Origin: a bacterium
GTDB lineage: Bacteria > Patescibacteriota > Gracilibacteria > Peribacterales > Peribacteraceae
Reading direction: 5' to 3'
Assembly: GCA_029558515.1 (NCBI GenBank)
Contig: JAKQEM010000032.1
Coordinates: forward strand, 1-64,000
DNA length: 64,000 nucleotides
A model generated the notes under the pieces. That model was not told the DNA's origin. It did no database searches and saw only the letters and a program-made list of their open reading frames with translations. Positions within the stretch are counted from its first letter, which is position 1, and each line of letters opens with the position of its first letter. Both the position numbers and the translations under genes were made by a program. Positions 2,117 to 35,445 of this stretch are shown here, piece after piece.

Positions 2117-2191
2117 GGCCCCATCGTCTAGCGGTCAGGACACCAGGTTTTCAGCCTGGGAACCGGGGTTCGATTCCCCGTGGGGCTGCCA
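2117..2191 (+). tRNA. tRNA-Glu (anticodon UUC)
   Basis: 75-nt cloverleaf. The acceptor stem pairs 2117-2123 with 2181-2187 (one G-U), then discriminator G and an encoded CCA (2189-2191). The anticodon stem is ccagg/cctgg around a 7-nt loop with TTC at its centre, and the T arm contains ggttcgattcc. This is a complete glutamate tRNA. Its 3' end is repeated exactly at 35425-35445, marking it as the attachment site of the island to its right. Confidence 0.97.
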
Positions 2192-2193
2192 AC
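2173..2193 (+). repeat. attL-like direct repeat (3' end of tRNA-Glu)
   Basis: 21 nt covering the T-arm end, acceptor 3' strand, CCA and two further bases, identical to 35425-35445 in the same orientation. Direct repeats of a tRNA 3' end are the standard scar of site-specific integration, with the intact tRNA kept at one end. Confidence 0.85.
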
Positions 2194-4932: not shown

Positions 4933-6252
4933 ATGGAAAACCGAGTTATCGAAGGTAAATGGTGGATTGCTGGCACTGAGGATGAGGAATCCGGAAATTT
5001 AGTGTGTGATGAGAAAGGATGGAACTTAAAATTGAATGGAACCTTTCAGCAGCAACCCGATGAAGATTTGAAACACGCTTTATCGCAGCAGCGTCCTCGC
5101 TTTATTTCGCCGAGCACCGAAAATACGGTTCTAGGAATCACAAAAGATGGCAAACCAATCACGCTCGAATATTTTCCAGCCAAAAGCTCCAATCTTTTTC
5201 TTGTTGGACGAGGGTATAATTCCGAGGCTTATCTCATTCATAGATTTTTCGAGAATGCCCATTTTCCTGATCCAAAAGCGATAACATTTAAGAGGGTGCT
5301 GGTGAAATTTCCCTTCCTCTATGAGTGGTTCGGGCAATCAATGGTGGACGTAGAAAGAGATCGAAATGAAGATGGTAGTGCGAAAGAAGTCAGATTTGTC
5401 TGCAAGCCCGGAACAAAAACTCCAATAGGCATCGTCGGTGATATGTCACTTGCACTCCGCGCATATGCAACGATGCCTTTCTTTCCGGCGAAAAACATTT
5501 CCATAACTCAGGAAGCGGAATTGGTCATTGAGAGTACAGGTGCGTCAGAGATTTCTCTGAAAGATATTCGAGCCACAATCGTTACCTTCAGGGATTTCCT
5601 AACAGTCGCTACAGGTCTGCACATCTCAGTCAAATCAATCGTAGGTATTACGGATAGCAACAAGGAGAATTTTCCTGATGGAAAAACATATAATCCGGAA
5701 GTTTTGATACACGATAGGTTCTTTGAGAACGATGGAATACAGGCAGATGTTAAGCCAAACTCTATGAATTTCACCTTCGGTGAACTGGCGGGAAATGCCG
5801 ATACAATTTTAAAAAATTGGTTTCAGGCCTCTCAAAAATTCAAGGACGTCTTCAACGTGTATTTCAGTACTTTAGCTGTTCCGAATTTGAATCTCCGGAA
5901 TAAATTCGCGAGTGTTATCGCTGCAATCGAAGGATTAATGAGGATCGGTGATCCTAGCCTGCGAACCGAGAGAAGTCTTTTCAAAATCATCAATGCCTTA
6001 CAGGATTTAATAAAGCCATATGGAATTCTCTTTACTACAAATGAGATTGAATTGATCGTGAATACTCGAAATAAGTTCGCTCATATTGAACTGACAGATC
6101 CGACCAGACAGCCCTTGGATGATCACCAGCTCTACGATGCCACAGCAAAGCTATGTGCAATGCTGGAGATCGCAGTCTTATGCGATTTAGGCTTCGACGC
6201 TCAAACATTGAGCAACATAGCTCGAAGAAAAATTGCAGAAGCTAAACGCTGA
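4933..6252 (+). CDS. ApeA-like HEPN-domain antiphage protein
   Basis: 439 residues. The N-terminus (GKWWIAGTEDEESGNLVCDEKG, then WNLKLNGTF) matches the opening of the ApeA N-terminal beta-domain seen in abortive-infection HEPN proteins. The C-terminal ~150 residues are helical and carry the HEPN ribonuclease signature R-x4-H in NTRNKFAHIELTD (about residues 378-390). ApeA proteins are HEPN RNases that stop phage by attacking host RNA; here this role is inferred from the two regions together. The gene begins 3 nt after the upstream nuclease-like gene, and the unusual neighbours suggest it acts as one component of a three-protein system. Its stop codon abuts the convergent stop of the next gene within the tetranucleotide-spaced sequence tgatca. 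Confidence 0.75.
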   Translation: MENRVIEGKWWIAGTEDEESGNLVCDEKGWNLKLNGTFQQQPDEDLKHALSQQRPRFISPSTENTVLGITKDGKPITLEYFPAKSSNLFLVGRGYNSEAYLIHRFFENAHFPDPKAITFKRVLVKFPFLYEWFGQSMVDVERDRNEDGSAKEVRFVCKPGTKTPIGIVGDMSLALRAYATMPFFPAKNISITQEAELVIESTGASEISLKDIRATIVTFRDFLTVATGLHISVKSIVGITDSNKENFPDGKTYNPEVLIHDRFFENDGIQADVKPNSMNFTFGELAGNADTILKNWFQASQKFKDVFNVYFSTLAVPNLNLRNKFASVIAAIEGLMRIGDPSLRTERSLFKIINALQDLIKPYGILFTTNEIELIVNTRNKFAHIELTDPTRQPLDDHQLYDATAKLCAMLEIAVLCDLGFDAQTLSNIARRKIAEAKR

Positions 6253-6891: not shown

Positions 6892-9180
6892 TTAAGCTGA
6901 GTTGGAGCGGATCTCCGCAATTATCGTTGCCATATTTTCTGCGGTCACCATCCGGAAAGCATTGGCTTTGCCGCAGGCCGAAGCCCATATCTCTCCAATG
7001 TGTTCTTTGTAGGTGGTATCCGTCGAGCCAATGCGGTCTGCTCCTTTGTATTCCAATATCCACCACGCGCCCTTCGTGGTTCGCACGATGAAATCCGGAT
7101 AGAACCGTGCGGAGCGATATCCTTGGATGAAGAAGCCGTCCGAATCTTGCACGACGTTCCGCAGCCACCAATCGACGGCGTCGCACGCGTCTAGCTGCTT
7201 TGCGAAGATCATCTCCTCGGCATTCAGTTCATCGCATCGGTCGAAAAGGTGTTTCTGGAAAGGCTCCTGCTGCGGTTGGAGGAGCGTCATGTCCATCGGC
7301 ACACGCCACGATTCAGATGTGCTGGGCGTGATCCTGCCTTGCTCCAGCAGCCTCTTGAATGTTTCCTCAGCCTGCCCCGAGACGAGCGTATCCACCAGCC
7401 GCCGGAGACTGTCACGCAGCGAGAATTTCTGCATGAAAAGCGTCTCAAGCGAATACTTCTGGAGCAGCTTCTCCAGAACATCGGTCAGGAATGCGTTCAT
7501 GTCGTTGATGGCGATAGCCTGTTCGCGCACGGTGCGCGAAATCCACCGGATCAATGCGTCCTTTGTCTCATCCTCCGAAAGCAGGAGCAGCTTAAGCCGC
7601 TGTTGTGCTTCAACGGTCACTGCATCTTCTTGGATATCTATCAATGTTGCCTGATTTTCCAGCTCCTCGAGGAACGAGAGCGGTACCTCGCTGCCGTGGA
7701 GCGAGAAGTCTTCCGGGATGAGGTCATAGAAGTCGAGTGGCTGGCCGTCGATTGCGAGCAGCGGAAGGCTGAAGTTTTCTTTTGAACATGCTCTGACTGC
7801 CTCATAGTCGGTTCGCTGCTCGGAGCCATCACTGCGAATCACGTCATGCTTCGAGTAACCGTTCTGCGAGAGTCCCTCTACCACCGCTTTCGCCGCGTCA
7901 TCGAATCGTCGCGAGGAGGTAAAGACGTATGAGCGGTTGAGCGCCTCCTGCGATTTTCTCTTTGCATAGGGCAGGCGCAGGACTCTGCCGATGATCTGCT
8001 CCACCGAGAGCCGCGTCCCCATGTTCGATGCCGACACGAGCGCATAGGCGAACGAACAATCCCATCCTTCCTTCAGCGCATTACAAGTGATGATGTAGCG
8101 CACAGGACATTTTCTGCTTAGCAGATTGGTGTGAGCGCTCAATTCATCTTCTTTGCCTGTCTTGATGGCGATTTCTTCGCGGGGTATCTGCAGTTCGTCC
8201 GTCAGGAAATCCACCAGCAAATGTACGTGCACTTTGTCCTCCCGTTCCTGCTCGATCTCCGCTTGGAGCAGAAGGAGAGGACGGATGTACTCCTTCGTTT
8301 CCTTTTCGTTTTTTTTCGTGATCTGCTCAAGCTCATCGCGTTTTTCCTTTGCCCGACGCACCGCCTCCTGCCATTGGGTTATATTCTCAAGGTGAATCGG
8401 AATTTTCACCATCTCCTCCTGTTTGAGCTGGATAGCGGGAATACTCACGAGGATGTTACTTCCCTGCAGCGGCGTCGCCGTGAACTCGATGATGCAGGAT
8501 GGCAGGAAACTTGCGATGACATCGACCGACAACTCCGTCTGAGCGTTGTGGCCCTCGTCCAGTATGACGAGCGGTCGGTGCATGCGAATGACATTCGCCA
8601 GAGACTGGATGACGAGGCCATCCTCTGTCTTGAAGAGGTTCCTATCCTCCACACCTCGGAAATGTTCCATGAGGGAGCCATTCTGTGCGTAGATTTTCAA
8701 TCCCTCCGTGTCTTCCCGCCGGATGGACGCGAGAGTCGTGACGACAACGCAGACGTTTTCGGTCACGTCTGAGGGCTTGAGTGCCCGCGCTTCTACGATG
8801 TCCATGACCCGCACACGCGAAGAGAAGAAGTGATCCAGCGTTTCGCGATACGGATGAGTCCTGTTCCGCAGTTGCGCGAGGGTTTGCGAGCGTATGGCGT
8901 CGGTCGGTACCAGCCAGAGCACGAGTCCCGCTTCCTGCTTTTCCAATAGGTAGTGCTCGAAGGCAAGGGCGACTGCATGAGACGCAATCAACGTCTTACC
9001 TCCGCCCGTCGGCACGCGAACGCAGACGAACGGCACCTTCGGATCTCCATGCAAATCGCGGTACTTTTCATGCGTTCTCCGGTAGAAAGCAATATCCGGA
9101 TCACCCTGCGCACGAGATTCCGCGAGAAACTCGCGCAGTTCCTCGATGCAGTGCCGTTGATAGTTCTTGAGATCGAGCAT
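6892..9180 (-). CDS. res: Type III restriction enzyme, Res subunit (DEAD helicase-nuclease)
   Basis: 762 residues from ATG 9180, 2 nt after the mod stop. Superfamily 2 helicase: Walker A VPTGGGKTLI at ~residues 56-65, motif II DEGH (LVILDEGHNAQ) at ~205, motif III TATP (FTATPLQG), and motif VI-type QIIGRVLRLPYAKR around residue 395-410. The C-terminal end carries a PD-(D/E)XK nuclease core, YPDFIVRTTKGAWWILEYKG (~residue 690-710). Together with Mod it would translocate or scan DNA from unmodified asymmetric sites and cleave. Slightly shorter than many Res proteins but all motor and nuclease motifs are present, so it appears functional. It is in an operon mod-res plus a membrane protein. Confidence 0.93.
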   Translation of the reverse strand: MLDLKNYQRHCIEELREFLAESRAQGDPDIAFYRRTHEKYRDLHGDPKVPFVCVRVPTGGGKTLIASHAVALAFEHYLLEKQEAGLVLWLVPTDAIRSQTLAQLRNRTHPYRETLDHFFSSRVRVMDIVEARALKPSDVTENVCVVVTTLASIRREDTEGLKIYAQNGSLMEHFRGVEDRNLFKTEDGLVIQSLANVIRMHRPLVILDEGHNAQTELSVDVIASFLPSCIIEFTATPLQGSNILVSIPAIQLKQEEMVKIPIHLENITQWQEAVRRAKEKRDELEQITKKNEKETKEYIRPLLLLQAEIEQEREDKVHVHLLVDFLTDELQIPREEIAIKTGKEDELSAHTNLLSRKCPVRYIITCNALKEGWDCSFAYALVSASNMGTRLSVEQIIGRVLRLPYAKRKSQEALNRSYVFTSSRRFDDAAKAVVEGLSQNGYSKHDVIRSDGSEQRTDYEAVRACSKENFSLPLLAIDGQPLDFYDLIPEDFSLHGSEVPLSFLEELENQATLIDIQEDAVTVEAQQRLKLLLLSEDETKDALIRWISRTVREQAIAINDMNAFLTDVLEKLLQKYSLETLFMQKFSLRDSLRRLVDTLVSGQAEETFKRLLEQGRITPSTSESWRVPMDMTLLQPQQEPFQKHLFDRCDELNAEEMIFAKQLDACDAVDWWLRNVVQDSDGFFIQGYRSARFYPDFIVRTTKGAWWILEYKGADRIGSTDTTYKEHIGEIWASACGKANAFRMVTAENMATIIAEIRSNSA

Positions 9181-9182
9181 AG

Positions 9183-10787
9183 TCAATAGACATTCACTTG
9201 GTAGGGAATCTGCTTGAATGTGATCCGCTCTTTTCGCAGCAGCGCATCGGAAAGGAGACAACGGTCGGCGTACACCACCCTCTGCCCCTCCGATTTCGCC
9301 AGTTTCCGCAACTGCTCACGCGTGAATGTGTTTTTGCCCCTTTCGGTGAAGAAGAGGAAGTAATCAATGTCGCCATTCGTCCCGACGAATGGCTTCTTCA
9401 CATTCTTCTCGTTCAGATCTTTTCGGGTTTCCGTGAAGAAAACATACCGCGCGAGATCCATGTACGTGACGGGCTCGGAGAGCTTTCCGTCCTTATCAAA
9501 CAGCGTCGTATCGAGCCGCATGAACTGGAAGCCGCCGCCCAATCCTTCTTCCTCGCCTTCGTCGGATTCATAGCCGCCGATGACTTTCTTCAGCCGCTCA
9601 GCGGTGATGTTTTTGGCAATCTCATCTTCCATTTCCACGAGGATGAACCTGCGTTTTCCTTCATCCTCCCTGTTTACTTCCAAGACCGCATGGCCTGTGG
9701 TTCCGGATCCGGCGAAGGAGTCCAGTACCACGGCTTCCTTGTCGTCCTTCGTCATCCACTTCACGATGCGCTTGATGAGGTCTACGGATTTCGGGGTATC
9801 GAAGACCTTCTTGCCGAACACCTGCTTCAGCTGGCTGGAGCCGTTCGGCTTCACATCTGTCCACAAATTACTGAGCAGTTTCGCGTTCGTCGGAGGAATG
9901 TAGTGTTCCGGCTTCTTAGTATCTGAAAGCCGCAACATGTCGAATTCCTCTCCTGTCTCCTCCACACGGGCGAGGTACCACGCATCGATGTTGTCCGGCG
10001 TCACTTCCTTCCGCTGTTTCTTCAAATCACTGAGAAGCTTCTCATAATTCCGGATGGCTTTCATACTTCGTGCTTCTCCCCACCGCCATTGCCCCTCCGG
10101 TGGCGTGATTCCGAAGAGCTTGTAGCGCATGGTCGGCCTGTCGGTTCCCCGCCAGTGATTATTCCACCCTCCCGGCTTTTCCTCCTCGAGTTCCATGTAA
10201 AGTTTCTGAAAACGAAGGCTTCGGGATTTGGAGTACACTACGACGGATTCATAGCCGTTATTGAGAGAATCGATTGTCTCGAATTGGGCTTGCACGTTCT
10301 TCACGCCGCGCCGGATGACGATGCTGTCCTTGAAGCACCCTTTGAAGATCTCGTTCATCATGCAAATCAAGTGGTGTTGTTCGTTGTAGTCGATGGAGAT
10401 GAAGATCACGCCGTCCTCCGCGAGCAGATCCCACAGCAGTTTCAGGCGTGGATACATCATGCAGAGCCATTTGTCGTGGCGACTCAAGTCGTCGTCCTCT
10501 CCTCCCACGACCTTTCCGAGCCATGAGCGTATCTCGGGCGCGTTGACGGCATCGTTGTAGACCCAGTTCTCTGTTCCCGTGTTGTAGGGAGGATCGATGT
10601 AAATACACTTCACCTTGCCGACGTAGTAGGGCATGAGCGCTTTGAGTGCCTCCAGATTGTCCCCTTTGATAAGCAAATGTTCGGAATCACCAAGGGACAG
10701 CTTGGTGTCCCGTTTCAGAAGCCGGAACGGGACATCTTTGTCGTGGTTGATAACCGCCTGTTTGCCGATCCAGTCAAGCGTAGGCAT
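9183..10787 (-). CDS. mod: Type III restriction-modification DNA methyltransferase, Mod subunit
   Basis: 534-residue N6-adenine methyltransferase of the beta order: catalytic motif IV YIDPPYNTGTENW at ~residues 65-77, and AdoMet-binding motif I DSFAGSGTTGHAVLEVN at ~residue 360. The middle ~200 residues are the target-recognition region, the part that varies between alleles and sets the recognition sequence. It pairs with the helicase-nuclease Res encoded 2 nt downstream. No repeat tract is visible in the coding region, so it does not look phase variable. Upstream (10788-10919) lies an operator-rich region shared with a divergent HTH gene. Confidence 0.93.
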   Translation of the reverse strand: MPTLDWIGKQAVINHDKDVPFRLLKRDTKLSLGDSEHLLIKGDNLEALKALMPYYVGKVKCIYIDPPYNTGTENWVYNDAVNAPEIRSWLGKVVGGEDDDLSRHDKWLCMMYPRLKLLWDLLAEDGVIFISIDYNEQHHLICMMNEIFKGCFKDSIVIRRGVKNVQAQFETIDSLNNGYESVVVYSKSRSLRFQKLYMELEEEKPGGWNNHWRGTDRPTMRYKLFGITPPEGQWRWGEARSMKAIRNYEKLLSDLKKQRKEVTPDNIDAWYLARVEETGEEFDMLRLSDTKKPEHYIPPTNAKLLSNLWTDVKPNGSSQLKQVFGKKVFDTPKSVDLIKRIVKWMTKDDKEAVVLDSFAGSGTTGHAVLEVNREDEGKRRFILVEMEDEIAKNITAERLKKVIGGYESDEGEEEGLGGGFQFMRLDTTLFDKDGKLSEPVTYMDLARYVFFTETRKDLNEKNVKKPFVGTNGDIDYFLFFTERGKNTFTREQLRKLAKSEGQRVVYADRCLLSDALLRKERITFKQIPYQVNVY

Positions 10788-11141: not shown

Positions 11142-11161
11142 CGCCCTCACAGGGCGTTTTT
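11142..11161 (+). terminator. Rho-independent terminator after the HTH gene
   Basis: Stem cgccct/agggcg with a cac loop followed by five T. It lies 6 nt downstream of the HTH stop and overlaps the last codons of the convergent serine recombinase gene. Confidence 0.8.
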
Positions 11162-12538
11162 GGCTTTTCCAGCGTCCTTCTGAAGGGTGATCTTCCCATC
11201 CGCCAGCGTGATCTTGTTCCGCAGGCAGTGGAGCAACTCCCGCTTCTCCTCGATCTTCCCGTTCTGAAGGAGATACTTTGCGTAGGCGCGGATCTCCACC
11301 CTCGGCATTTTTTCGCTGGTCTGCCTTCCCAAGACTCCTGTCGTAAATTTCTCGTAGCGTGACACTTCTTCCTGCAATTTTTTCTTCATGCCGATCTTGT
11401 CGAGATCGACCGTATCGATGATCGTCATGAGGCTTTCGAGTAATTCATCCTCCCGGATCGACGGCTGCTTGCAGTCATGGTCTTTCGCGTGGCAACAGCG
11501 GTAGTAGACATACTTCCTAATGCTCCCGTCTTTCATGCGCTTGTGCTTCTCTTCGGCGGTAACCCCGGATTCGCACCCACCGCAGAGCATCATCTTCGTG
11601 AAGGCGAATTCCTTGGTGCCCCATTGCTTCTTCGGTGCCATGTCGAGCACCTTCCCTGCCGCCTCGAAGAGATGCTGCGGGACGAGCGGCTCGTATGTCC
11701 CTTGGTACCAGTTCCCGCTTCCGACCGGATACTCGAATTTCCCCGTGTAGAAGGGGTTTCTGAGCATCCGGTAGATCATGCTGAGGGTCACGGTCCGTCC
11801 CAGTTTCGTCGTGAACCCGACTTCCTGCATCCAGCGGTGCAGATCGCGTCCTGACGCATGCTGGTAGGCCACCTTCTCAAACGCCTGGCGAACGAGCGGT
11901 CCACGCATCGGATCGGGAATGACCCTGTTCTTCTTGTCCTCCGGTCGCTTCTCCAGCGCATACCCGAGCGCCGGAATGCAGGGGCGATGTCCCATTTCCG
12001 CCCTCGTTTTCATGCCTCGTTTGGTGTTGATCCCGCGGTTGTCATTCTCCAGCTTCGCCTGGCTGCAGAGAATCATGAGGAGGAATTTCTCGTTCGGGTT
12101 GTTCGTGAACCGCTGCCCATGCGTGCGGATTTCGATCAGATGGCCTTGGTCCATCAGGTCCACGACCGTCCCCAGATCCCCGGCATTTCTGCTCAGACGA
12201 TCCGCCGCCCACGTCAGCACACCCGTGAACATTCCCTCGCGGATGTCGGTCAGAAGTTGCTTGAAGACGGGTCGTGCCCCCGATGCTTTCGCGGAATGAC
12301 TCTCGCGCCGCACTTCCACGATCTCCAGTCCCTCGCGCTTCGCGAGTTCCAGCATCGACTTGATTTGCGAATCGATACTCAGCGCCTGCCGCTCGTCATC
12401 CTCGGAGGATTTTCGCGCGTACAGGCAGTACTTGATTGGCCCCGTCATCCGTTCTTCCGGCGGCGTGAGGTCAATGTGGGAGAGGGCGACGGGCTGTGCT
12501 TTCGGTGTGCGTTTTTGCGGGAGCGTGGCGGTTGCCAT
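11147..12538 (-). CDS. Large serine recombinase (resolvase/invertase-recombinase-zinc ribbon)
   Basis: 463 residues from ATG 12538, chosen because the leader before it is the pyrimidine run ccttctcccattccc; upstream in-frame codons lack any signal. Domains: N-terminal catalytic resolvase domain (YCLYARKSSEDD, nucleophile Ser near residue 44; ADRLSRNAGDLGTVVDLM), the recombinase DNA-binding domain (LGYALEKRPEDKKNRVIPDP, LRNPFYTGKFEYP), then a zinc ribbon (CGGCESG...YRCCHAKDHDC) and a C-terminal coiled-coil-like tail. It catalyses site-specific integration or excision through a Ser-DNA intermediate. It lies in the middle of the island, directly downstream of the terminase genes where portal genes would be expected, so it may be the integrase of one component of a composite element. 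Confidence 0.93.
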   Translation of the reverse strand: MATATLPQKRTPKAQPVALSHIDLTPPEERMTGPIKYCLYARKSSEDDERQALSIDSQIKSMLELAKREGLEIVEVRRESHSAKASGARPVFKQLLTDIREGMFTGVLTWAADRLSRNAGDLGTVVDLMDQGHLIEIRTHGQRFTNNPNEKFLLMILCSQAKLENDNRGINTKRGMKTRAEMGHRPCIPALGYALEKRPEDKKNRVIPDPMRGPLVRQAFEKVAYQHASGRDLHRWMQEVGFTTKLGRTVTLSMIYRMLRNPFYTGKFEYPVGSGNWYQGTYEPLVPQHLFEAAGKVLDMAPKKQWGTKEFAFTKMMLCGGCESGVTAEEKHKRMKDGSIRKYVYYRCCHAKDHDCKQPSIREDELLESLMTIIDTVDLDKIGMKKKLQEEVSRYEKFTTGVLGRQTSEKMPRVEIRAYAKYLLQNGKIEEKRELLHCLRNKITLADGKITLQKDAGKAKNAL

Positions 12539-12641: not shown

Positions 12642-14156
12642 TCATTCGTCGATATCACCCCGTACATTGTCCCATCCGGTGACCCCATCGGGTCCGAGGA
12701 AGTAGATCCCGAAGTGCGGGAATTTCTCCTCGAGCGCCTTGATGATGAGGAGCGAAAATGCGTCCGCCAGATCGTCGTACCGCTCGATGCCGAAGTTCAC
12801 GAGCTGGTTGATGAGATCCTCTGCCCCCTTTCTCGGGAAGAGCACCCGTCCCGACTGCACGGCGTGGGACGTGAGTGCGAGCCTGCCGCGTTTGTCTTGG
12901 CCTTTCACGGGCACGGCCTCGGCATCGTAACCGTCCTCCTTCAGAAGTTCGACGAGAGAGGATTGATAGCCCACGTCTTCGATATAGAGAACGGACTTGC
13001 TCCTGTCCCCCGTGGTGCTCACGAGATTCTTCGCGCACTCCAGCGTCTCGAGCGTCGTCATTCGCTGATTTACAGGGTTCGGGAGGATATAGATCGTGAG
13101 CTTCTGATCGATGAAGTAGAGCCGCGCCGTCACCATCGCCGTATAGTCGGCGGTGTCGTTCTTGGAAATGGCGAGATCAATGCCCGTTGCGATTTTCTCA
13201 AGACGTACTTTCGACACTCCTTGGTCGGTGTAGTGTTCTACGGGGAACTCGTCGTAGTACTGAATCCACTCCGGATGAATGACGCGCTCCGTATCCGAAA
13301 GGATATGCAAAAGAAATTCCCGATGCCATGCCGCCTCGCTCCCGATGCGGGATTTTTCCTCTTGGATCGCATGCTCATCCGGATATTTTCCCGGCCAGAG
13401 GATATTGCCCTGCGCGTCGAGCAGCGGATATTCGCGGTAGACACCGCCCATGGAGCCATCTGTGATATGCCGCTCGAATTTCTTGAGTAGGCAGTCTTCG
13501 TGCAGGAGATTCCCGATGATGAACGTTCGCGTCTTTGGTCCTCCCGCCGGAATCACCTCGCCCATGAGCCACTGGTACGTCTTGTCCCGGCCATCCTTCG
13601 TCTTCACGGATTGCAAATCCTCGATGTCGTCGCAGATGATGAGTTGCGGACGGTGCGGCCCGTGTCGGATGCCGCGCACGCTCGTCTCGGTCGAGGCCGC
13701 CGTGATACGCGCCCCGAGCAGCGGCAGCACGATGGACGAGGAATTCCACTCGTCTTCCCGCTCCTCGAACGGCCCCAGATCCTTCCGCAGCAGCTCATTG
13801 CGCTCGATTTCGTCCTTCAGGTTCTTGAGGTGCTGCCGCGCTTGGGACTGCGTCTGGCCGAGGATCAGGACAAACTTGATGCCGAGCTTTCCGAGGATCG
13901 CCCACAAGGGAAAGGATAGGCTGACAATGGTGGACTTGCCTGATCCTCGGAATGCGGTGATTGCGGTGAGCTTCTGTGATTCATCCTCCGTGAACCCAAA
14001 AATTTCCTTCTGAAACAGTGCCGTCGGACTCGACACGTAGTGTCCGAAGTAGATATGAAAGAAGTAGAAATGGCTCTCGCGCGTGATACTGCGCCGCACC
14101 CGCTGGTCGCGTAGAATCGTCGTGCGAAGTTCCGGAGTGATATCCATGGTCTGCAT
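12642..14156 (-). CDS. terL: Phage terminase large subunit (second copy)
   Basis: 504 residues. ATPase: Walker A ITAFRGSGKSTIV at ~residues 64-76, adenine/coupling segment ILGQTQSQARQHLKNL, and Walker B LIICDDIEDLQS at ~190. The nuclease domain of RNase H-like fold has TGIDLAISKNDTADYTAMV (first Asp), VLYIEDVGYQSSL (second acidic) and YDDLADAFSLLII (third). It would package concatemeric DNA into a procapsid and cut it. It is a full-length paralogue of the gene 18 nt upstream, with all catalytic residues kept. Downstream come 103 non-coding bases and then a serine recombinase instead of a portal gene. Confidence 0.95.
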   Translation of the reverse strand: MQTMDITPELRTTILRDQRVRRSITRESHFYFFHIYFGHYVSSPTALFQKEIFGFTEDESQKLTAITAFRGSGKSTIVSLSFPLWAILGKLGIKFVLILGQTQSQARQHLKNLKDEIERNELLRKDLGPFEEREDEWNSSSIVLPLLGARITAASTETSVRGIRHGPHRPQLIICDDIEDLQSVKTKDGRDKTYQWLMGEVIPAGGPKTRTFIIGNLLHEDCLLKKFERHITDGSMGGVYREYPLLDAQGNILWPGKYPDEHAIQEEKSRIGSEAAWHREFLLHILSDTERVIHPEWIQYYDEFPVEHYTDQGVSKVRLEKIATGIDLAISKNDTADYTAMVTARLYFIDQKLTIYILPNPVNQRMTTLETLECAKNLVSTTGDRSKSVLYIEDVGYQSSLVELLKEDGYDAEAVPVKGQDKRGRLALTSHAVQSGRVLFPRKGAEDLINQLVNFGIERYDDLADAFSLLIIKALEEKFPHFGIYFLGPDGVTGWDNVRGDIDE

Positions 14157-14174
14157 GGGGTGGGAGGGAAGAAA

Positions 14175-15740
14175 TTAGAATTCCATACCGAGAATGTCCT
14201 CGCCGCCGCCATCGCGGTCGCCGCTATGATCGGGGTACATGAATTTCTCCCATGCCGATTTGCCGTAGGATTTGGTCAATCCTTTGTTGAGTTCGCCGAT
14301 GCTGATCGGTCTCCCGCGCCCCTTCATTTCCAGCATGGGCAAAATGAGGATGGCGAAGGCGTCCGCGAGGTCGTCATAGCGCTCATTGCCGAATCCCACG
14401 AGCTGCTCGATCAGCCGCTCGCAGCCGGTCACAGGGAACTTCACGCGCCCGGCTTGGATCAGATGGGAGGCAAGCGCGAGGCGGCTCCGCTTGTCTTGAC
14501 CCTTCGTAGGAACGCCCGTTGCGGGGAATCCGACGGCATCCAGTTGCTCGATGAGCCCGCGCTGGAAACCGACATCCTCAATGAACAGATCCGTTTTTTC
14601 GCCGCCGCCGAGCACGAGCGATACGGATTTCGCGCGCTCAATTGTTTCGAGGAAGCTCAAGTGCTCATTGACGGGGTTCGGGAGAATGTAGATTTCCATG
14701 TCCTCGCCATACCCGTACATCCGTCCCGACACCATCGCGGTATTATCCGCGCCGTCCTCCTTCGAGATCGCAGGATCGATGCCCGTGCCAATCGTGCGGA
14801 AGGGCAGCGTGTCCTCATCGGGAAATTCGCCGTAGTACGTGATCCACGACGGATGGATAAGCCTCTCCAAGTCGGGAATGATCCGCAGCATGTATTCGCG
14901 TTGCCATGCCGCCTCGCTTCCCACCCGTTGCCGCTCGGCTTCGATGGCGGCGAGCGTCGGGTACTTGCCCGGCCAGAGTCGCTTTCCTTGGGCATCCATG
15001 ATCGGGTACTCACGGAACGCGCCCTGCATCGCGCCACTCGCGATCTCGCGCTGCAATCTGCGCAGCAGGCAGTCTTCGTGCAAGAGGTTTCCGACGAAGA
15101 CGATACGCGTGAAACGGTCGCCCGCCGGAATCAGTTCGCCCTTCACCCAGCTGTAGGTCTTGTCCCTTCCTTCGCGGGTTTTCACCGACTGCAAGTCCTC
15201 GATGTCGTCGCAAATGATGAGGTCCGGGCGGTACTCCTTGTGCCGAAGTCCGCGCACCGACTGGTCGATACTGACTGCCATGATCTTTGCGCTGTAGTTG
15301 CTGATCACAAGGCAGGAGTTGCGCCATTCGTCCTCCTCTTCCCGGAACGGTCCGAGGTCACCTCGAAGCAGCGGATTATTCTCCAGTTCCTCCTTGATAT
15401 TTTTCAGGTGTTGCCGCGCTTGGGCTTGCGTCTGTCCGACAAGGAGGATGAACTTCTTGCCCGGCTTTCCGAGGATCGACCAGAGGACGTAGGACATGTT
15501 CATGATCGTCGACTTGGCGGAACCGCGGAACGCGGTGATAACGATCGTCTGCAATGCGCCACTTTCGGTCATCCGGAACATCTCCTTCTGGAACGCCGCC
15601 GTCCTGTACTTCACGTAATGGTGGAAGTAGCAGTGAAAGAAGAGGTCATGACGCTCCTGCGTCACGCGCCTCCGGATTTTTCTGTCACGCAGCATCAGCT
15701 GCAGGAGCTTCTGCTCCGGGGAGGGGTTCTCCTTTTGCAT
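14175..15740 (-). CDS. terL: Phage terminase large subunit (first copy)
   Basis: 521 residues from ATG 15740, which follows the leader ttcttccccctcttccc. Walker A VITAFRGSAKSTIMNM, Walker B LIICDDIEDLQSVKT, and nuclease acidic residues in GIDPAISKEDGADNTAMVS, LFIEDVGFQRGL and YDDLADAFAILIL. It shares long identical stretches with the downstream copy (for example LIICDDIEDLQSVKT and NLLHEDCLL), so the pair arose by tandem duplication followed by divergence. The 5' end overlaps the terS reading frame by 56 nt, so expression is coupled to it. Confidence 0.95.
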   Translation of the reverse strand: MQKENPSPEQKLLQLMLRDRKIRRRVTQERHDLFFHCYFHHYVKYRTAAFQKEMFRMTESGALQTIVITAFRGSAKSTIMNMSYVLWSILGKPGKKFILLVGQTQAQARQHLKNIKEELENNPLLRGDLGPFREEEDEWRNSCLVISNYSAKIMAVSIDQSVRGLRHKEYRPDLIICDDIEDLQSVKTREGRDKTYSWVKGELIPAGDRFTRIVFVGNLLHEDCLLRRLQREIASGAMQGAFREYPIMDAQGKRLWPGKYPTLAAIEAERQRVGSEAAWQREYMLRIIPDLERLIHPSWITYYGEFPDEDTLPFRTIGTGIDPAISKEDGADNTAMVSGRMYGYGEDMEIYILPNPVNEHLSFLETIERAKSVSLVLGGGEKTDLFIEDVGFQRGLIEQLDAVGFPATGVPTKGQDKRSRLALASHLIQAGRVKFPVTGCERLIEQLVGFGNERYDDLADAFAILILPMLEMKGRGRPISIGELNKGLTKSYGKSAWEKFMYPDHSGDRDGGGEDILGMEF

Positions 15741-16188
15741 GGGAAGAGGGGGAAGAAAGTGAAAGATCCTCATCGGTAATGGAGGCAAGTCGCAGGGCTT
15801 CGGTGATGGCGGCTTCCTGCTCGGGCGTGAGCGCGTCGTTCTCCTGTTTGATCCGTGCCGTCACCTCGAGCTTAGAGTTGTAGTTGGGGTTTCTGTGCTT
15901 AAGCCAGTACGTAATAGCGCCGAGGTTGCCGTCGCGGATGAAGGTCAGAAGCTGGCTCTCGGCCATGTCGTTCACGAGCGCGGTGCCATGCTCGAGCGCT
16001 TCGTCTGCGGCCTTGGCGAACTCGGGATCCTCCTGTCGCCAGCGGTAGTATGTGGGGCGGCTGACACTTGTCTTCTCGCACGCGGCGGAAACGATGGGAA
16101 TTTTCTTGAGCTGCTCGAGGAGCAGCGCCTGCTCTTGGACTCTCCGCGCCTCCACCGTGGCCTTGTGCTTGTCGTGGCGGTTGTTCAT
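15685..16188 (-). CDS. terS: Phage terminase small subunit
   Basis: 167 residues. An HTH of the phage terminase small-subunit type covers residues ~28-65 (IPIVSAACEKTSVSRPTYYRWRQEDPEFAKAADEAL), followed by a helical oligomerisation region (NDMAESQLLTFIRDGNLGAITYWLKHRNPNY, a segment typical of this family) and an acidic, low-complexity tail. It would recognise the packaging site and recruit TerL. Its ATG sits in an ATGA overlap with the stop of the upstream methyltransferase, and its tail overlaps terL, so translation is coupled through the cluster. Confidence 0.88.
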   Translation of the reverse strand: MNNRHDKHKATVEARRVQEQALLLEQLKKIPIVSAACEKTSVSRPTYYRWRQEDPEFAKAADEALEHGTALVNDMAESQLLTFIRDGNLGAITYWLKHRNPNYNSKLEVTARIKQENDALTPEQEAAITEALRLASITDEDLSLSSPSSHAKGEPLPGAEAPAADAA

Positions 16189-16958
16189 CGTTTAACGGGG
16201 GGATGGATAATGGCCGGGGCGATGCCCGTCGCTTTCTCGAAGCGTTCGCAGATGACACAGCAGTAATCGGGGGAAAGCTCGATGCCGATGCAACGGCGTT
16301 TCGTTTCCTCGCAGGCGATCATGGTTGATCCTGACCCGAGGAAAGGGTCATAGACGAACTCGCCGATCCGCGTGCCGTTGAGGACGAGGCGTCGCAGGAG
16401 CCCCACGGGCTTGCAGGTTGGATGGAGCGGGCTGCGGGCGGGCTTTGGATGCACGAGGACGCTTCTGTCGGCGGAGCGGATGCGTTCATGTGCGCCGTGC
16501 CAGCCGAAAGCAATCAACTCATGCTGAGGATGGTGGTCGAGCCGTCCGGCGATCGGCTGGGTTTTGACCCACACAAGCAACTGCGAGAGCCGGAACCCGG
16601 CGTCGGTCATCCCGTCGCGCAGCGCGAACACCATCCGGTCGGCGTTGAAGCAGTAGAGGATATTCTTGGGGCTCAGGTGCGTCTTCACCGCCTCCAACCA
16701 CATTGCGGTGAACTGGCGGTACTCGCTGTCGCTCTGCAGATGATCGTTCTTGATATCCGCATGCCGTTTTTTGTGCCCAGCGAATTTCTCCTTCGATGCG
16801 ACGTAATCAATTCCATACGGAGGATCCGTCAGGATTTGGCGCACCTTCGCCTTGCCGATGATCTTCTTCACGAACGCGGCATCGGTGCTGTCGCCGCAAC
16901 CGAGAACGTGATCTCCGAGCCGCAGGATCGTGCCCGTGGTGATATGAAGTTTCTTCAT
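16185..16958 (-). CDS. Phage-type DNA methyltransferase (beta class)
   Basis: 257 residues. Motif IV LTDPPYGIDYVASKEK at ~residues 38-50 and motif I YDPFLGSGSTMIACEETKRRCIGIELSPDYC near residue 215. This order and the DPPY tetrad indicate an amino-methyltransferase making N6-methyladenine or N4-methylcytosine. It lacks a large target-recognition domain, as is common in stand-alone phage enzymes. It starts within an ATGA overlap with the ParB-methyltransferase stop and ends in an ATGA overlap with terS. Likely role: self-protection of element DNA before or during packaging. Confidence 0.92.
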   Translation of the reverse strand: MKKLHITTGTILRLGDHVLGCGDSTDAAFVKKIIGKAKVRQILTDPPYGIDYVASKEKFAGHKKRHADIKNDHLQSDSEYRQFTAMWLEAVKTHLSPKNILYCFNADRMVFALRDGMTDAGFRLSQLLVWVKTQPIAGRLDHHPQHELIAFGWHGAHERIRSADRSVLVHPKPARSPLHPTCKPVGLLRRLVLNGTRIGEFVYDPFLGSGSTMIACEETKRRCIGIELSPDYCCVICERFEKATGIAPAIIHPPVKR

Positions 16959-18241
16959 GGGTGTTTGAGGGAAGGGGCAATGCAGAGCGCCTTCGCGCGC
17001 TCGACGATGAGGTCGCAGAAAATTGGCTCGACTTCACACAGGAACGCCCGACGCTTCATCTGATGGCATGCCGCGAGCGTCGAACCGCTCCCGGCGGTGG
17101 TATCAAGAACGATATCCCCGGGCTTCGTGCAGCGCCGGAGCGGCTTCTCATGCAGGGAAGGGGGTTTCTGCGTTGGGTGCTGGTACTCGCTCGAGTGCAG
17201 CCGCTGGCACGCCCAAATCTGAAAGAGGTCGAAGAGATCGTCTATCTGCCGCTTGCCCGATCCCACCTCTTTATCCAGAATTTCGGAGAGGTTCACGTTC
17301 GTTGGATGGAGGTAGGGCTTGCCCACGGTGCCGTAAACCGCGATCTCCATGCATTTGTTAAACGCGATCTGAGGCGTGAGGGAGAAGTTGCCTTTCACCC
17401 ACGCGCACAGGCGGCGGTGCGTAATTCCTAGCTCCCTATAGAGTTCCTGCACGATCCATACCCAGTTCTCATCGCACCACAAAAAGCAGTGGGCATCGTC
17501 GTGCGCGGCTGCGAGCGCGTTGCTGAGGATCGCCTTCAGGAACGCCCGGTATTCCTCCTCACCCTTGGCATCATTGGTCTTGCCGCCGTAGCGCATGACG
17601 CCGCCGAGTCCTTTGTCGTAGGAAAGTCCGATGTTAAAAGGAGGGTCAATGTAGAACATTGATGCCTTGTGCTTCCCCATGAGCGTGCGGATGGCGGCGG
17701 GGTCGGTGGCGTCGCCACACAAAAGTCTATGGGGTCCGAGTTCCCAGAGATCCCCGGGCTTCGTCTTGGGTTTCTTGATCTTCTCCAGTTCCTTCTCGAC
17801 GTCGAAATCGTCATCCTCCGTTTCGAGGAGACCGTCCCACGCCGCCGCCAGTTCGTCGGAGGTGAAGCCGGCGTCAAGGAGGAGATCCGAACCGAACTCT
17901 TTGAGCGCTTCCCAGTCCCACTCTCCGGTCGAGCGATTGAGCCGGAGGTTCAATTCCTTCTCCCGTTCGATACTCGGAATGTGGACGTACACCACGGGCA
18001 CCGTCTTCATCCCGAGCCGCTTTGCCGCTTCGAGTCGCATGTGCCCGCCGATGACGACGTTCTTGCGGCTGGGAGCGCCATTCACGATCACGGGATCGAC
18101 GAACCCGAACCGTGAGAGACTCTCCATCAGTGTTGCAAGCTGCCCCTCGTTCCACTTGCGGGGATTGTAGGTGGCGGGACGCAGCGATCCGATCTGCTCC
18201 TGTACGATGGTGAGTGCGGAAGAATGTTTGCGCGGAGGCAT
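16955..18241 (-). CDS. ParB-domain / DNA methyltransferase fusion
   Basis: 428 residues. The N-terminal ~100 residues are a ParB/sulfiredoxin-type nuclease domain (YNPRKWNEGQLATLMESLSRFGFVDPVIVN, then VIGGHMRLEAAKRLGMKTVPVV with the G-G-H-x-R motif). A helical linker follows, then a beta-class methyltransferase: YIDPPFNIGLSYDKG (motif IV) and DTTAGSGSTLAACHQMKRRAFLCEVEP (motif I). This fusion is typical of phages and mobile elements. The ParB part probably serves DNA binding or nicking rather than partition. It is the first gene of the packaging operon that continues through terS and both terL genes. Confidence 0.92.
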   Translation of the reverse strand: MPPRKHSSALTIVQEQIGSLRPATYNPRKWNEGQLATLMESLSRFGFVDPVIVNGAPSRKNVVIGGHMRLEAAKRLGMKTVPVVYVHIPSIEREKELNLRLNRSTGEWDWEALKEFGSDLLLDAGFTSDELAAAWDGLLETEDDDFDVEKELEKIKKPKTKPGDLWELGPHRLLCGDATDPAAIRTLMGKHKASMFYIDPPFNIGLSYDKGLGGVMRYGGKTNDAKGEEEYRAFLKAILSNALAAAHDDAHCFLWCDENWVWIVQELYRELGITHRRLCAWVKGNFSLTPQIAFNKCMEIAVYGTVGKPYLHPTNVNLSEILDKEVGSGKRQIDDLFDLFQIWACQRLHSSEYQHPTQKPPSLHEKPLRRCTKPGDIVLDTTAGSGSTLAACHQMKRRAFLCEVEPIFCDLIVERAKALCIAPSLKHP

Positions 18242-18324: not shown

Positions 18325-19464
18325 TTATTTTGTTTTCTTCCTCCTTTTTGGCTTCCTGTTCAAATTTCTCAGTTTATCAGAACACTCTTCTCTTCCGCAA
18401 GTCTCTTGGTTCGGTCTGTTCTTTCTGGGGATGAAGGCACGATGGCAGAAACGGCAATGCGGTCCTATCCAGCTTCCGACAATGTCTTGCACGGTCACGA
18501 CTTCGCCCGTGATGAAGTACAGAAACCAGTTCAAAATCCATATCATGTGATTCGTGTCTTCGGCTTTCACAAGGGCGGTGTCATCGAGATTCCGCAAATA
18601 CACCCTGCTGCTCTCACGAGAGATAGTTCCTTCATTCAAATGGCTCTGTTGCGCCAGCCAGAAGCGCCAATGTTGCACTTCCTGCACGGTGAACGAATGT
18701 TTCTCCAACAATTGTCGCGCCTCTTTTTCCAAGCGCGGCTGCTCATGCAGCTTGTAATATGATTTCAACTCGCCCCTCAGCCCTTTTTTGTCTTTCTGGT
18801 AGTCGGGCAATAGTTTTTCATATTGCTCTGTCATCCGTCCGCTGGATATGTCCTTCAATCCCTCCACCTCAACGTACAGACGAAGAAAATCATTCAGCTC
18901 CGCCAATCTCTTTTTCATATGAGAGCGTATGGATCGTTTCTCCTTCGGGAAAGCGAGCGCTTCCTTTTCGTGCTTCAGGATAATTTTCACTGCCAGCATC
19001 TGGCGCTTGTCGTAGAGCAACTCGAAGTTTCCCTCGAGCAATTTCTTATTCGTGGTCCATCCGCCGACGTGCGGACGCGCTTTCCATCGAAAATATTTCT
19101 TCGTCGAAGGAAAATCGTACTCATTCGCGTGCCAGCGGTCGAGCCAGTCACCACCCATCCACAGGGATTCCATGTCATACCATTTCTTGCGATCAATCTT
19201 CATCGGCTGAAATTTCTCGAAATCGTGAGGATAAATCCAAATCCACTGGTCGCGCCCTTGATGATGGGTATAGATGCGGGCGTACTCCACGATGCCAAGG
19301 AAGAGACGCAGCGCCGGATACAGCAGTTTCTGCTTGTGCCACTCTTGCAGGCGTTTTTCACTGATGCGCAGATTATTTTTGTCGCAGTAACTCACGAACG
19401 AACTCTTCGTCAGAAGTGTTGATTGGCGGAAAGCCGGTTGAGTGTCGGATGTTGGGAGTTTCAT
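18325..19464 (-). CDS. Hypothetical protein with C-terminal zinc-finger motif
   Basis: 379 residues. The N-terminus resembles a MerR-like HTH (LTKSSFVSYCDKNNLRISEKRLQEWHKQKLLYP). The centre is Trp- and Lys-rich and predominantly helical (KHEKEALAFPKEKRSIRSHMKKRLAELNDFL). The end carries a four-Cys/His cluster, C-x2-CHRAF-x10-C-x4-C, followed by RNLNRKPKRRKK, similar to the CGNR-type zinc fingers of DNA-binding proteins. Family not recognised; probably a transcription regulator or DNA-binding protein of the element. It is divergent from the conflict-system operon 130 nt away, so it could regulate it. Bases 18242-18324 are non-coding. Confidence 0.72.
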   Translation of the reverse strand: MKLPTSDTQPAFRQSTLLTKSSFVSYCDKNNLRISEKRLQEWHKQKLLYPALRLFLGIVEYARIYTHHQGRDQWIWIYPHDFEKFQPMKIDRKKWYDMESLWMGGDWLDRWHANEYDFPSTKKYFRWKARPHVGGWTTNKKLLEGNFELLYDKRQMLAVKIILKHEKEALAFPKEKRSIRSHMKKRLAELNDFLRLYVEVEGLKDISSGRMTEQYEKLLPDYQKDKKGLRGELKSYYKLHEQPRLEKEARQLLEKHSFTVQEVQHWRFWLAQQSHLNEGTISRESSRVYLRNLDDTALVKAEDTNHMIWILNWFLYFITGEVVTVQDIVGSWIGPHCRFCHRAFIPRKNRPNQETCGREECSDKLRNLNRKPKRRKKTK

Positions 19465-19593: not shown

Positions 19594-22491
19594 ATGCCCA
19601 CTCCACGATCGACTCCCGGCGATGACCCTATCAAGCAAGATCCTAAGGAGAATCCGGAATTTGAAGCGCCTGAAGAAGTCGTGGGAGGTCAGGGTATAGA
19701 AACGACGCGTGAGGATATTTCTTCCAGGGCAAAAGAAGCTGTGGAATTGCCAGCTGATCGCACAGTCCTTGATGTACCCATTGAATTCTGCGCAGAGGGC
19801 AGACGAATCGAAACGCTGAATCGCGGCGGCGCGTATGTTGTGCGCGTGAATGCCGCTCGCTTCCGAAGCCGCGAGGAAGCCGAGCGGGCGGGTATCGTCC
19901 AAGCCGCTTACCTACGCTCATTGCGCGACCATTTACAGACAGAAACCGGCAAGGCATTCGAGGCGCTGCAATCTTTCGGCTCGGCTGCACACAGCGCGTT
20001 GCGCCTGAAAGGAGTAAAAACACTCTCGGAATGGGAAAAAGAGGAGGTATCGGCTCTCAGGCAGCCATCTCAGACGCCCCTCACGCTCGCGCAAGTATTT
20101 GACCGAAGCGTTGAGCGCTACATCCTGACGGGAGAGATGCCGCAGGATATTCCAAATGAAGTGCGCCGAGCGCTCGAAAAAATCCCCGGACGACAAGGCA
20201 AGAGCGCTCTTGATTTCATCGCGCAGGAAAGCCGCTCACTCCGGAGCAGCGCAAAACTCTACGAAGAACATATCGTTCCTCTCCGCGACAATCTGAAGGC
20301 GGAGGATGGCGAGAAACGTATGACCGAGCGCGATGACTACGTCCCGCCGAACTTCAAGGGTGAGCAGGAACCGCTCGATCCGGAGAGCGTGCGGTGGAGG
20401 GTCGAGCCGTTCGTCGGCGGTTATTATCGCCAGCAACTCTACCGGTACGATCCGGCTGCGCAGAGAATCGTTGCGGAGCCGACCGAGAAAACGGAGTTTA
20501 CGCTCAACGATCCTCCCGAGGACATTGATGAATTGCCGCTCTATACGTTTCACGGTGTCTACGTCCCCGGCGAGGAGAATCGTATTCCGTTTCCAGAAAA
20601 GGGATTGCCTCTTCCGGATTCCCTGAATCCGAAGGAAGCATTCATACTTATGCGGAGTTCTGCGGGTGTTTTCTCTCTTGAAGAAAGGCAGCAGGGAACG
20701 GCGGCGGAACCGGTACAATATTCATTCAATTTTGTCCTCGCTCGGAGCAGCGATAACAGGATTGATGATGAACCGACTGACGCGGATCTCCTCACTATCG
20801 ATGGTCCGCTTGATGAAACCGCTGAAGAATTGATTGCAGGCCTGAAACAGAATGCCTTTCTGAATAAAGCGGATCGAGGGCGATCCCTCGTCTTTGCCAC
20901 TCGCAAGCAATTTGTGTATCCGAAGGATGAGGAAATGTCATCGATGGATGAACGGTATCGGGCTGCCGGAATGAATTTGCATCATGAAATGGCGGATTTG
21001 AAGCTCGCCGACTGCCACTGGAGCAATATCCGCGCGTCCGATCTCGGGCGTAGGCTGGAGGTCCCCATGCGTACACCGAGCGGCTTTTTCGTGACCCGCC
21101 ATCCCGATGTAGATTTTGCTCCTATTGGCGGTATTGGTCATGCATGGAGCGAGCGGTGGGACGAAACGTCACGGCAATGGATTCGCATGGACGCTACCCC
21201 GCCGAAACAGGACGAGGATGAAGAGGAAGACGAGAATGACGAAGATCAGCCCGCTTCAGCTCCAGCGGCTGCGGGTGAAAGAGAGACAAAGGTCGGCGTG
21301 AACGATGAAGAAAATGAGATAGAAGAAAGTGGTGTGCTCGAAATGAACGAACAGGAAATGGAGCGGCTCCTAGAACTCGTAACGCGCTCCGGCCCTTCGG
21401 CGGAGGAAGTAGCGGATGCGCTTTTCCGCGAGCGCACAAATGTTTCGGCGTCCGATTGGAAGAAGGTGGAAGGATTTGTCGAAACCGTGAACGCCGGCAA
21501 AGTACCGGAGGAGTCGCAGATTCCCGAAACACCGGACATGTTGCGGCATTTCCGCGACCGCATTACGGCTCCCAAGGGAACGCTCGAGCGAGAATGGCAA
21601 AAACTCTTCTGTCTTATCTGCACGCACCGCTTGGTCCACCGTCGCAAATTCCCCGGCAACGTCCGTCAGAGCGAAAGCACGACGGGATTGGAAAACCCCG
21701 TCGATGCCTACATCGACATCATGGCCGACGAACCAGATCCGATGGGATTCGGGATCGATACGAGGAGGCCGGAGACCATCCTCGACGTGAAGGCATTCGA
21801 GGAGGATTCCCTCGTCGATCTCACGTCGTCCATGAACGATACGGACGGCTACGGCAATGTGATGCGCGTCGAGCAGAAAAAAGTGGTGCTTTCGCTTCTC
21901 TATCATCTCATGGAACTGAACGCGGAATTGAACGATTCACGCGTCCGATCCCAACTGCGCACGCCACTCAAGATCCGATCCGAGGTCTACTCCATCCATG
22001 GCCAAGGCAAGAAGAACCAAGGCCAATTCGCGCGTCTCAAAGGGGCTGAAGAAGACATCACTGAAGCGGCGCTCGTGCATCTTGCGCGGGAACTCGATCA
22101 GACGACGCCCGGCGCGGGCGACTTCCTCAGCGCGTTACGCGCATACCGCGAAGGGTTGTCTCCGGAAACTCTGGAGCGTATTCGTTCGGGGGAACTGGTG
22201 AAAATGCTTACAATCTATTCCGATGGCAATCACTGGTGCAGCAACTGCGGCTCCGAATCCTGCAATGTGCAGATCCACGCGGAGCGTGTACGTGCCGCGC
22301 AGGAGGAAATTCGTGCCATCCGCGACCTCGGTATTATCGTGCAGGGAATCGGTTTCACGAAGAAAGCGGAGGCGATCAAGCTCATGTGCCAAGACCCGAA
22401 GGAACCCGGCGGTGCAGTTGTCGTCAATGACGTTTCCAGAGCCATTGCTGCCAGACACGCGATGCTGACAAAGCATTTGCAAAAACTATAA
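19594..22491 (+). CDS. Transglutaminase-like / von Willebrand factor A protein (partner of MoxR ATPase)
   Basis: 965 residues. Residues ~470-535 form a transglutaminase-like core: Cys in LADCHWSN, His in GGIGHAWSERW, Asp in RMDATP, the order Cys-His-Asp of this peptidase/crosslinking superfamily. A highly acidic linker follows (~540-600). The C-terminal ~230 residues look like a vWA domain: MIDAS-type DLTSSM at ~740 and a later acidic YSDGNHW (~875) followed by a Cys cluster (CSNCGSESC) and GIIVQGIGF. vWA proteins typically work with MoxR AAA+ ATPases, and the next gene is exactly that. Inferred role: effector or adaptor of a conflict system. The N-terminal 450 residues are unrecognised. Confidence 0.78.
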   Translation: MPTPRSTPGDDPIKQDPKENPEFEAPEEVVGGQGIETTREDISSRAKEAVELPADRTVLDVPIEFCAEGRRIETLNRGGAYVVRVNAARFRSREEAERAGIVQAAYLRSLRDHLQTETGKAFEALQSFGSAAHSALRLKGVKTLSEWEKEEVSALRQPSQTPLTLAQVFDRSVERYILTGEMPQDIPNEVRRALEKIPGRQGKSALDFIAQESRSLRSSAKLYEEHIVPLRDNLKAEDGEKRMTERDDYVPPNFKGEQEPLDPESVRWRVEPFVGGYYRQQLYRYDPAAQRIVAEPTEKTEFTLNDPPEDIDELPLYTFHGVYVPGEENRIPFPEKGLPLPDSLNPKEAFILMRSSAGVFSLEERQQGTAAEPVQYSFNFVLARSSDNRIDDEPTDADLLTIDGPLDETAEELIAGLKQNAFLNKADRGRSLVFATRKQFVYPKDEEMSSMDERYRAAGMNLHHEMADLKLADCHWSNIRASDLGRRLEVPMRTPSGFFVTRHPDVDFAPIGGIGHAWSERWDETSRQWIRMDATPPKQDEDEEEDENDEDQPASAPAAAGERETKVGVNDEENEIEESGVLEMNEQEMERLLELVTRSGPSAEEVADALFRERTNVSASDWKKVEGFVETVNAGKVPEESQIPETPDMLRHFRDRITAPKGTLEREWQKLFCLICTHRLVHRRKFPGNVRQSESTTGLENPVDAYIDIMADEPDPMGFGIDTRRPETILDVKAFEEDSLVDLTSSMNDTDGYGNVMRVEQKKVVLSLLYHLMELNAELNDSRVRSQLRTPLKIRSEVYSIHGQGKKNQGQFARLKGAEEDITEAALVHLARELDQTTPGAGDFLSALRAYREGLSPETLERIRSGELVKMLTIYSDGNHWCSNCGSESCNVQIHAERVRAAQEEIRAIRDLGIIVQGIGFTKKAEAIKLMCQDPKEPGGAVVVNDVSRAIAARHAMLTKHLQKL

Positions 22492-26828: not shown

Positions 26829-26941
26829 AGCTCGGATGGCAACCTCGTCAACGTCGGCAACTTCGATCGTGACGGCGTGAACGTCAACAACGATCAACCT
26901 GACAACTCGAATGGCAACCTCGGGGTCGTCCTCGCTCGGAA
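26829..26941 (+). repeat. DGR template repeat (TR)
   Basis: 113 nt, rich in aac triplets at the positions that vary in VR1 and VR2 (aac codons are the hallmark because A mutagenesis of both A positions gives many amino acids without stops). The 23-nt 3' end is identical to both VRs; the next bases differ by a single C/G, as expected for the distinction between the template and homing versions. It is non-coding here and lies upstream of the reverse transcriptase gene in the same orientation. Confidence 0.93.
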
Positions 26942-26989
26942 CTTCCTTCATGGTAACCCAAGGGGCTCCCGTCTCAAGAGTCCCTTAGG

Positions 26990-35424: not shown

Positions 35425-35445
35425 ATTCCCCGTGGGGCTGCCAAC
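35425..35445 (+). repeat. attR-like repeat (tRNA-Glu 3' end)
   Basis: Exact copy of 2173-2193. Only the 3' 19 nt of the tRNA plus two bases are present, so this is not a second tRNA gene. It defines the right end of the island; the next chromosomal gene ends 3 nt later. Confidence 0.85.

Follow-up and report, generated by a model that had tools for sequence, protein, structure and literature searches.

Tandem terminase large subunit genes in a tRNA-bounded element without recognised structural genes from Patescibacteria

The window analysed here, a stretch of 64,000 nucleotides, carries an integrated element of 33.25 kb with two complete terminase large subunit (TerL) genes and its own serine recombinase, in which no capsid, portal or tail gene is recognised (Table 1). 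Judged by its anatomy and its relatives, the element almost certainly belongs to an old, diversifying lineage of capsid-less elements in Patescibacteria. With less confidence, we favour the reading that it represents a new satellite-like family of integrative elements, which would spread in shells borrowed from other viruses. The window comes from contig C35 (83.6 kb) in a 1.31-Mb genome of 49 contigs (G000), whose nearest named relatives in our genome scan are Peribacteria/Peregrinibacteria MAGs.

The first-pass annotation of this DNA had described two full-length TerL genes in tandem with intact ATPase and nuclease motifs, followed by a recombinase and lacking the usual portal-capsid cluster nearby, and closer analysis bore out this description. 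TerL2 and TerL1 (521 and 504 aa) lie head to tail on the minus strand with an 18-base gap between them and are 57% identical over 480 aa. Both match the PHROGs family phrog_38 'terminase large subunit' (E 3e-70 and 5e-80 for the two); neither scores above the cut-off in Pfam, and the PF03354 profile has no match in their own genome. Each copy has the Walker A (FRGS[GA]KST), Walker B (ICDDIED) and GNLLHED motifs together with the acidic nuclease residues, and so combines ATPase motifs with those of a RuvC-type nuclease, as a terminase large subunit does. We also inspected the pair for loss-of-function substitutions in one copy, and both keep the catalytic motifs. The closest solved structures to an AlphaFold model of TerL2 (pLDDT 83.5, pTM 0.67) are the large terminases 8dgc, T4 gp17 and HK97 TerL, at modest TM-scores of 0.3-0.44. 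The operon reads ParB-methylase, methylase, TerS, TerL2 and TerL1, with the large serine recombinase downstream, and TerS overlaps the start of TerL2 by 56 bases. All 238 phage records matched by TerL2 are below 60% identity, the best row reaching 27% over 87% of the query.

The 3' end of tRNA-Glu recurs as a 21-bp direct repeat at the two ends of the element, longer than any repeat in 500 control draws of random 34-mers of the contig (maximum 15). The element is thus a site-specifically integrated element with its own recombinase, as phage satellites are. The window recombinase has only distant matches among plasmids, and a tyrosine integrase (PF00589) is found neither on C35 nor on C43 and in this MAG only on C24 and C38. 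When 24 ORFs of the element, all but some small ones, were compared with PHROGs, TerS and the two TerLs were the only 'head and packaging' matches; capsid genes elsewhere in the element were looked for and none was recognised among these ORFs. Profiles for portal (PF04860) and HK97 capsid (PF05065) had 0 matches in the whole MAG. By these sequence methods the virion gene set is incomplete, as in a phage satellite, and the portal, capsid and tail genes of a Caudoviricetes prophage are not found in the element, where ORFs of unknown function could hide diverged structural proteins. A search for the empty site found the left neighbour gene in 63 of 74 family genomes and both neighbours kept in 0 of 16 fetched stretches, which yielded no empty site. 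The second, shortened serine recombinase in the element may be a remnant of an earlier insertion.

Table 1. Coordinates of the element and its features in the window
Feature	Position	Strand	Basis or remark
tRNA-Glu(ttc), integration site	2117..2191	+	ARAGORN
Element	2173-35445		33.25 kb; 21-bp direct repeat of tRNA-Glu 3' end at both ends
attL, 21-bp repeat over tRNA 3' end	2173..2193	+	repeat search and control
ApeA-like HEPN defence protein (cargo)	4933..6252	+	PF18862, PF18739; PADLOC
Type III restriction subunit (cargo)	6892..9261	-	PF04851; PADLOC REase_III
Type III methyltransferase (cargo)	9183..10787	-	PF01555; PADLOC MTase_III
Large serine recombinase, probable integrase	11147..12538	-	ATG at 12538; PF00239, PF07508, PF13408; PHROGs
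TerL1	12642..14156	-	504 aa; phrog_38 match
TerL2	14175..15740	-	521 aa; ATG at 15740; phrog_38 match
TerS	15685..16188	-	phrog_4044, phrog_309 (PHROGs)
DNA methylase	16185..16958	-	PF01555
ParB-domain DNA methylase	16955..18241	-	PF02195 and PF01555
Conserved protein, C-terminal Cys cluster	18325..19464	-	occurs in part of the element family
965-aa protein, no family match, cargo with DGR	19594..22491	+	shared with C43 (80%) and G156 (81%)
AAA_5 ATPase, C-terminus = DGR variable region 1	22521..25325	+	PF07728
340-aa protein ending in DGR variable region 2	25407..26429	+	repeat comparison
DGR template repeat	26829..26949	+	repeat comparison
DGR reverse transcriptase	27354..28403	+	PF00078; phrog_1423
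Second, shortened serine recombinase	30178..30966	-	PF00239; phrog_95
attR, exact 21-bp copy, element end	35425..35445	+	repeat search and control

A second element of 29.65 kb with its own TerL pair lies beside tRNA-Gln on contig C43 of the same genome. Its 13-bp repeat is weak by itself, because 6 of 500 control draws reach at least 13. The two elements have a common block of ~22 kb, aligned in three pieces at 72-75% DNA identity, and C43 has the RM and DGR genes in common with the window as well as the core; the orthologous TerL1 and TerL2 proteins are 78% and 84% identical. On contig C29 of the same MAG (L012, G000:C29, 9387 bp) a third, different TerL is followed by ORFs that are portal- and scaffold-like by eye only, and this contig is perhaps a phage of this host.

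The family extends well beyond this genome. A TerL2 match (E<=1e-20) occurs in 25 of the 353 genomes of the class. Our in-class set comprises 25 loci from 22 genomes and leaves aside G206 (a true prophage), G189:C146 and G111 (27-28% identity) and G310 (TerL and TerS, with no recombinase or ParB-methylase within 20 kb). TerS is present at 23 of these loci, the recombinase at 22 and the ParB-methylase at 20, most gaps falling at contig ends. The out-of-class set consists of 17 loci from 13 of the 31 matching genomes; 16 combine TerL, TerS and recombinase, 15 of them with the ParB-methylase, and the remaining one, the prophage G493_C8b, has both a portal and a capsid match and serves as a control. 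Taken together, 38 of the 42 genome loci inspected carry TerL and a serine recombinase without recognised structural genes; the others are G156, G228 and G230, where the stretch read holds no recombinase, and the control prophage. The PF04860 and PF05065 HMMs match 3 and 2 of 25 genomes searched, never on a contig with the element. In the 13 out-of-class genomes and on the viral contigs, the search for structural genes relied on tblastn with a small number of portal and capsid proteins, a method that can overlook diverged ones. Across the phylum, a TerL profile matches 39 of 379 evenly drawn genomes, and nearly all of those inspected hold elements of this family. A viral scan of the best 80 of 547 relatives found many such contigs in IMG/VR without a portal match, a caution that capsid-less contigs of this kind get called viral. 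Broken copies occur as well (an inner stop in G136 and L129, a partial TerL in G230). At least two core cassettes stand in series at L235-L237 (G676:C6) and on viral contig 3300032737_000190 (L115, L118). A full-text search of the literature found no description of such elements or of TerL pairs, which is weak evidence, as bioRxiv and many subscription papers lie outside its scope.

We then consider the TerL tree, which has 76 rows and a bootstrap that is not fully settled; it omits L139, L142, L151-L153, L156-L158, L160-L187, the near-duplicates L049-L051 and the partial TerLs of G173, G186_C48 and G230. In it, 61 rows from loci without a portal match form one clade (100/99), which argues that the capsid-less state is old and diversified rather than the product of repeated decay. 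Its neighbours are L137, L141, L159 and L132, a clade of their own (100/99), and the branch joining the two has low support (83/69). Portal and capsid matches occur in both L137 and L141, L159 has a weak portal match (23%), and L132, at first labelled truncated, groups among the phages. The TerLs of the tailed phages L137 and L141 and of the prophages G206 and G493_C8b are related to those of the elements (37-49% identity), and L137 also carries a ParB-methylase piece; in these phages, in contrast, TerL adjoins portal and capsid genes. On the search for a helper phage that the first-pass annotation had proposed, phages with a related TerL exist (L137, L141, L159); for the window's own sample the search covered its MAG, where the portal and capsid HMMs had no match. 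The sample number 3300035698, shared by L113 (an element cut by the contig end) and the phage L141, is the only hint of helper and element together.

With a shared stretch counted a single time there are 41 loci; at 31 a tRNA gene lies on the recombinase side of TerL, and in 30 of these 31 cases its 3' end points into the element (11 Gln, 8 Glu, 4 Ser, 2 Leu, 2 Asn, 1 Asp, 1 Gly and 1 Arg). Exceptions to the rule are G157, whose tRNA points away, G375, with tRNAs between recombinase and TerL, and G171, with another recombinase at the tRNA. The motif GACC occurs at +11..+32 beyond the tRNA at 19 of the 30 loci (2000 shuffles: mean 1.8, maximum 6) and in the next two stretches at 3 and 4 of 30; the window has GATCC in its place, which we counted against our preferred reading. 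Repeats of the tRNA end of at least 15 bp bound six elements: those of the window (33.3 kb), G077 (28.1 kb), G325 (22.4 kb), G493_C2 (20.9 kb), G571 (15.8 kb) and G676 (32.7 kb). The G676 repeat is 23 bp with one mismatch and encloses two elements, and G676 stands outside the comparison of element content. In that comparison G325, G493_C2 and G571 have only core genes in common with the window; G077 gave no match because it recodes TGA, and its core was seen in the locus survey. Likeness of one tRNA to another (G363a, G136) was not scored as an end repeat. Within Peribacteria, recombinase clades follow the tRNA target: a 7-row clade (100/100) has tRNA-Glu in 6 of 6 labelled rows and a 4-row clade (100/98) tRNA-Gln in 4 of 4, with G223 (Gln) outside both. 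Over the whole recombinase tree the target changes 18 times, compared with a shuffled mean of 22.2 (as low in 3 of 200), and outside Peribacteria it thus follows the tree weakly. Between the congeners G219 and G220, chromosome homology ends at G219:C3:258299 and restarts at 287298, a gap that lies around tRNA-Glu; a TerL match is absent from G220. We rejected G220 as a clean empty site since it carries another island there, with tRNA-Glu in the opposite sense, which marks the site as variable. The attR of the G219 element was looked for and not found.

Its defined ends, the second copy, the phylum-wide family and the TerL clade all back the earlier proposal of a satellite-like element without structural genes, which remains the best reading. 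We infer the helper, the packaging step and the purpose of two TerLs. A helper phage would set the element off, the serine recombinase would excise it at the tRNA and TerS would mark its DNA; TerL2, probably with TerL1, would dock on the helper portal and pump element DNA into helper shells. Once delivered, the element would insert at a tRNA gene, and its cargo would then defend the new host. A less probable alternative is that the terminase has retired from virions and serves the element's own DNA processing, by concatemer cutting, linearising or feeding another cell-to-cell route. This would agree with the lack of a capsid gene in any inspected member and with the genomes of the 25 class loci, 20 of 22 of which have no PF04860 match and, G189 apart, no PF05065 match anywhere in the MAG. 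But nuclease, packaging ATPase and TerS are retained jointly, as packaging requires, the capsid-less clade adjoins phage TerLs, and helpers infect from outside and may be absent from a MAG. It is still harder to believe that the terminase proteins are mainly anti-phage, binding or poisoning the machinery with which an invading phage packages its DNA, within a mobile defence island: type III RM, ApeA-like and CBASS-like cargo would suit such a role, and satellites often redirect helper packaging according to PMC11389934, but nearly all copies retain catalytic motifs that a decoy does not need, and the steady linkage to a recombinase points to mobility. A prophage stripped of its structural genes by a large deletion, as the first-pass annotation had also offered, and with a duplicated TerL, has a phage-like ParB-methylase, TerS and TerL order and the gene content of L137 (TerL, portal, capsid and ParB-methylase piece) in its favour, yet is very improbable given an arrangement common to 38 of 42 loci, a single TerL clade, purifying selection and defined ends.

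The satellite-like reading invites comparison with known systems. Tycheposons also integrate at tRNA genes, and some are satellite-like, but they use tyrosine recombinases and live in other hosts; the window element shares the tRNA site and has no tyrosine recombinase. PICIs and SaPIs are site-specifically integrated, lack a full virion gene set and encode TerS, and satellites of this kind have anti-phage effects. The present family is like them in integration, gene set and TerS. PICIs have tyrosine integrases and use the TerL of the helper, whereas the present elements have a serine recombinase and their own TerL, two in some members. The cfPICIs likewise have their own TerS and TerL. According to PMC11389934, cfPICIs make their own capsids; in the present element no capsid gene is recognised by PHROGs or HMMs. 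PICMI, as described in PMC10803314, has no capsid-remodelling genes and depends fully on helper shells, a likeness to our proposal; it differs in having ~6 kb and three core proteins, its authors finding no terS homologue, compared with 16-33 kb, TerS and TerL here. PMC10803314 also puts known satellites at about one third of the helper genome; by this measure 16-33 kb is large, which counts against the satellite reading, as do the broken copies, the three loci whose stretch read holds no recombinase and the weak branch to the phage TerLs.

Why some members have two TerLs can be approached through their distribution. TerL1 forms one clade (100/100; 10 rows in one tree, 9 in the 76-row tree), occurs at 7 genome loci of 6 genomes and on viral contigs L048-L051 and L112, and sits behind TerL2 wherever the contig permits; it is a single old paralogue. 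The second TerL of L052 is distinct from TerL1 and marks a repeated origin in a different element. The dN/dS of the copies, a check suggested earlier, comes to 0.024 for each TerL when G203 is compared with G219 (dS 0.54 and 0.16), the sole unsaturated pair; in other orthologue pairs it is 0.04-0.10, with dS saturated, and three pairs were not computable. These values show that the element TerLs are kept by purifying selection. Two packaging specificities had been proposed for the pair. Since each element has a single TerS, a mixed motor is at least as likely, and the single TerS would favour one mixed motor or two portal types over two DNA specificities. Most likely, the two TerLs either combine as unequal subunits in a single motor or drive separate motors, each for its own portal type; the pair would lend itself well to testing a packaging motor with large subunits of two kinds. 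A C-terminal TerL tail was considered as a docking signature and rejected: it occurs in 8 of 9 TerL2, 5 of 9 TerL1, 5 of 53 single rows (two of them, L129 and G493_C2, read in part) and 0 of 9 phage TerLs, and the window TerL1 is without it. The single TerL of L072 (G157:C5:5071-6543) has a TerL1-like tail, yet groups on the TerL2 side, and is possibly a chimera. In G154 (L063/L064, G154:C13:19380-21542) a 720-aa TerL carries, by fusion, a further terminase nuclease domain (phrog_24361, E 1e-16), another route to a doubled nuclease.

The cargo of the window element includes a diversity-generating retroelement (DGR) with a reverse transcriptase and with template and variable repeats that differ mainly at adenines: each of the two variable regions has 28 mismatches, of which 17 fall on a template A. 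The C43 element carries a CBASS-like cyclase and a 4TM effector (L010:6354-8629) between tRNA-Gln and the RM genes. Such defence and hypervariable cargo fits the satellite reading and is no proof of it. To our knowledge, little is known of gene exchange among the reduced genomes of Patescibacteria (CPR); if our reading is true, this family moves defence systems and diversity-generating retroelements between tRNA genes. Tentatively, one might go further and see an ancient phylum-wide lineage with terminase and no capsid, one branch of which evolved a hetero-oligomeric two-TerL motor, with the second TerL of L052 and the G154 fusion as repeats of the theme, as a main vehicle for exchanging defence and hypervariable genes, though we rather doubt this full version. 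The window DGR (22521-28403) has two variable-region proteins, one a large AAA_5 ATPase, and is also found in C43 and partly in G156; in all three the 965-aa protein always precedes the AAA_5 variable protein. Reverse transcriptase matches lie on several further element contigs (L115, L121, L123, L127 and L128).
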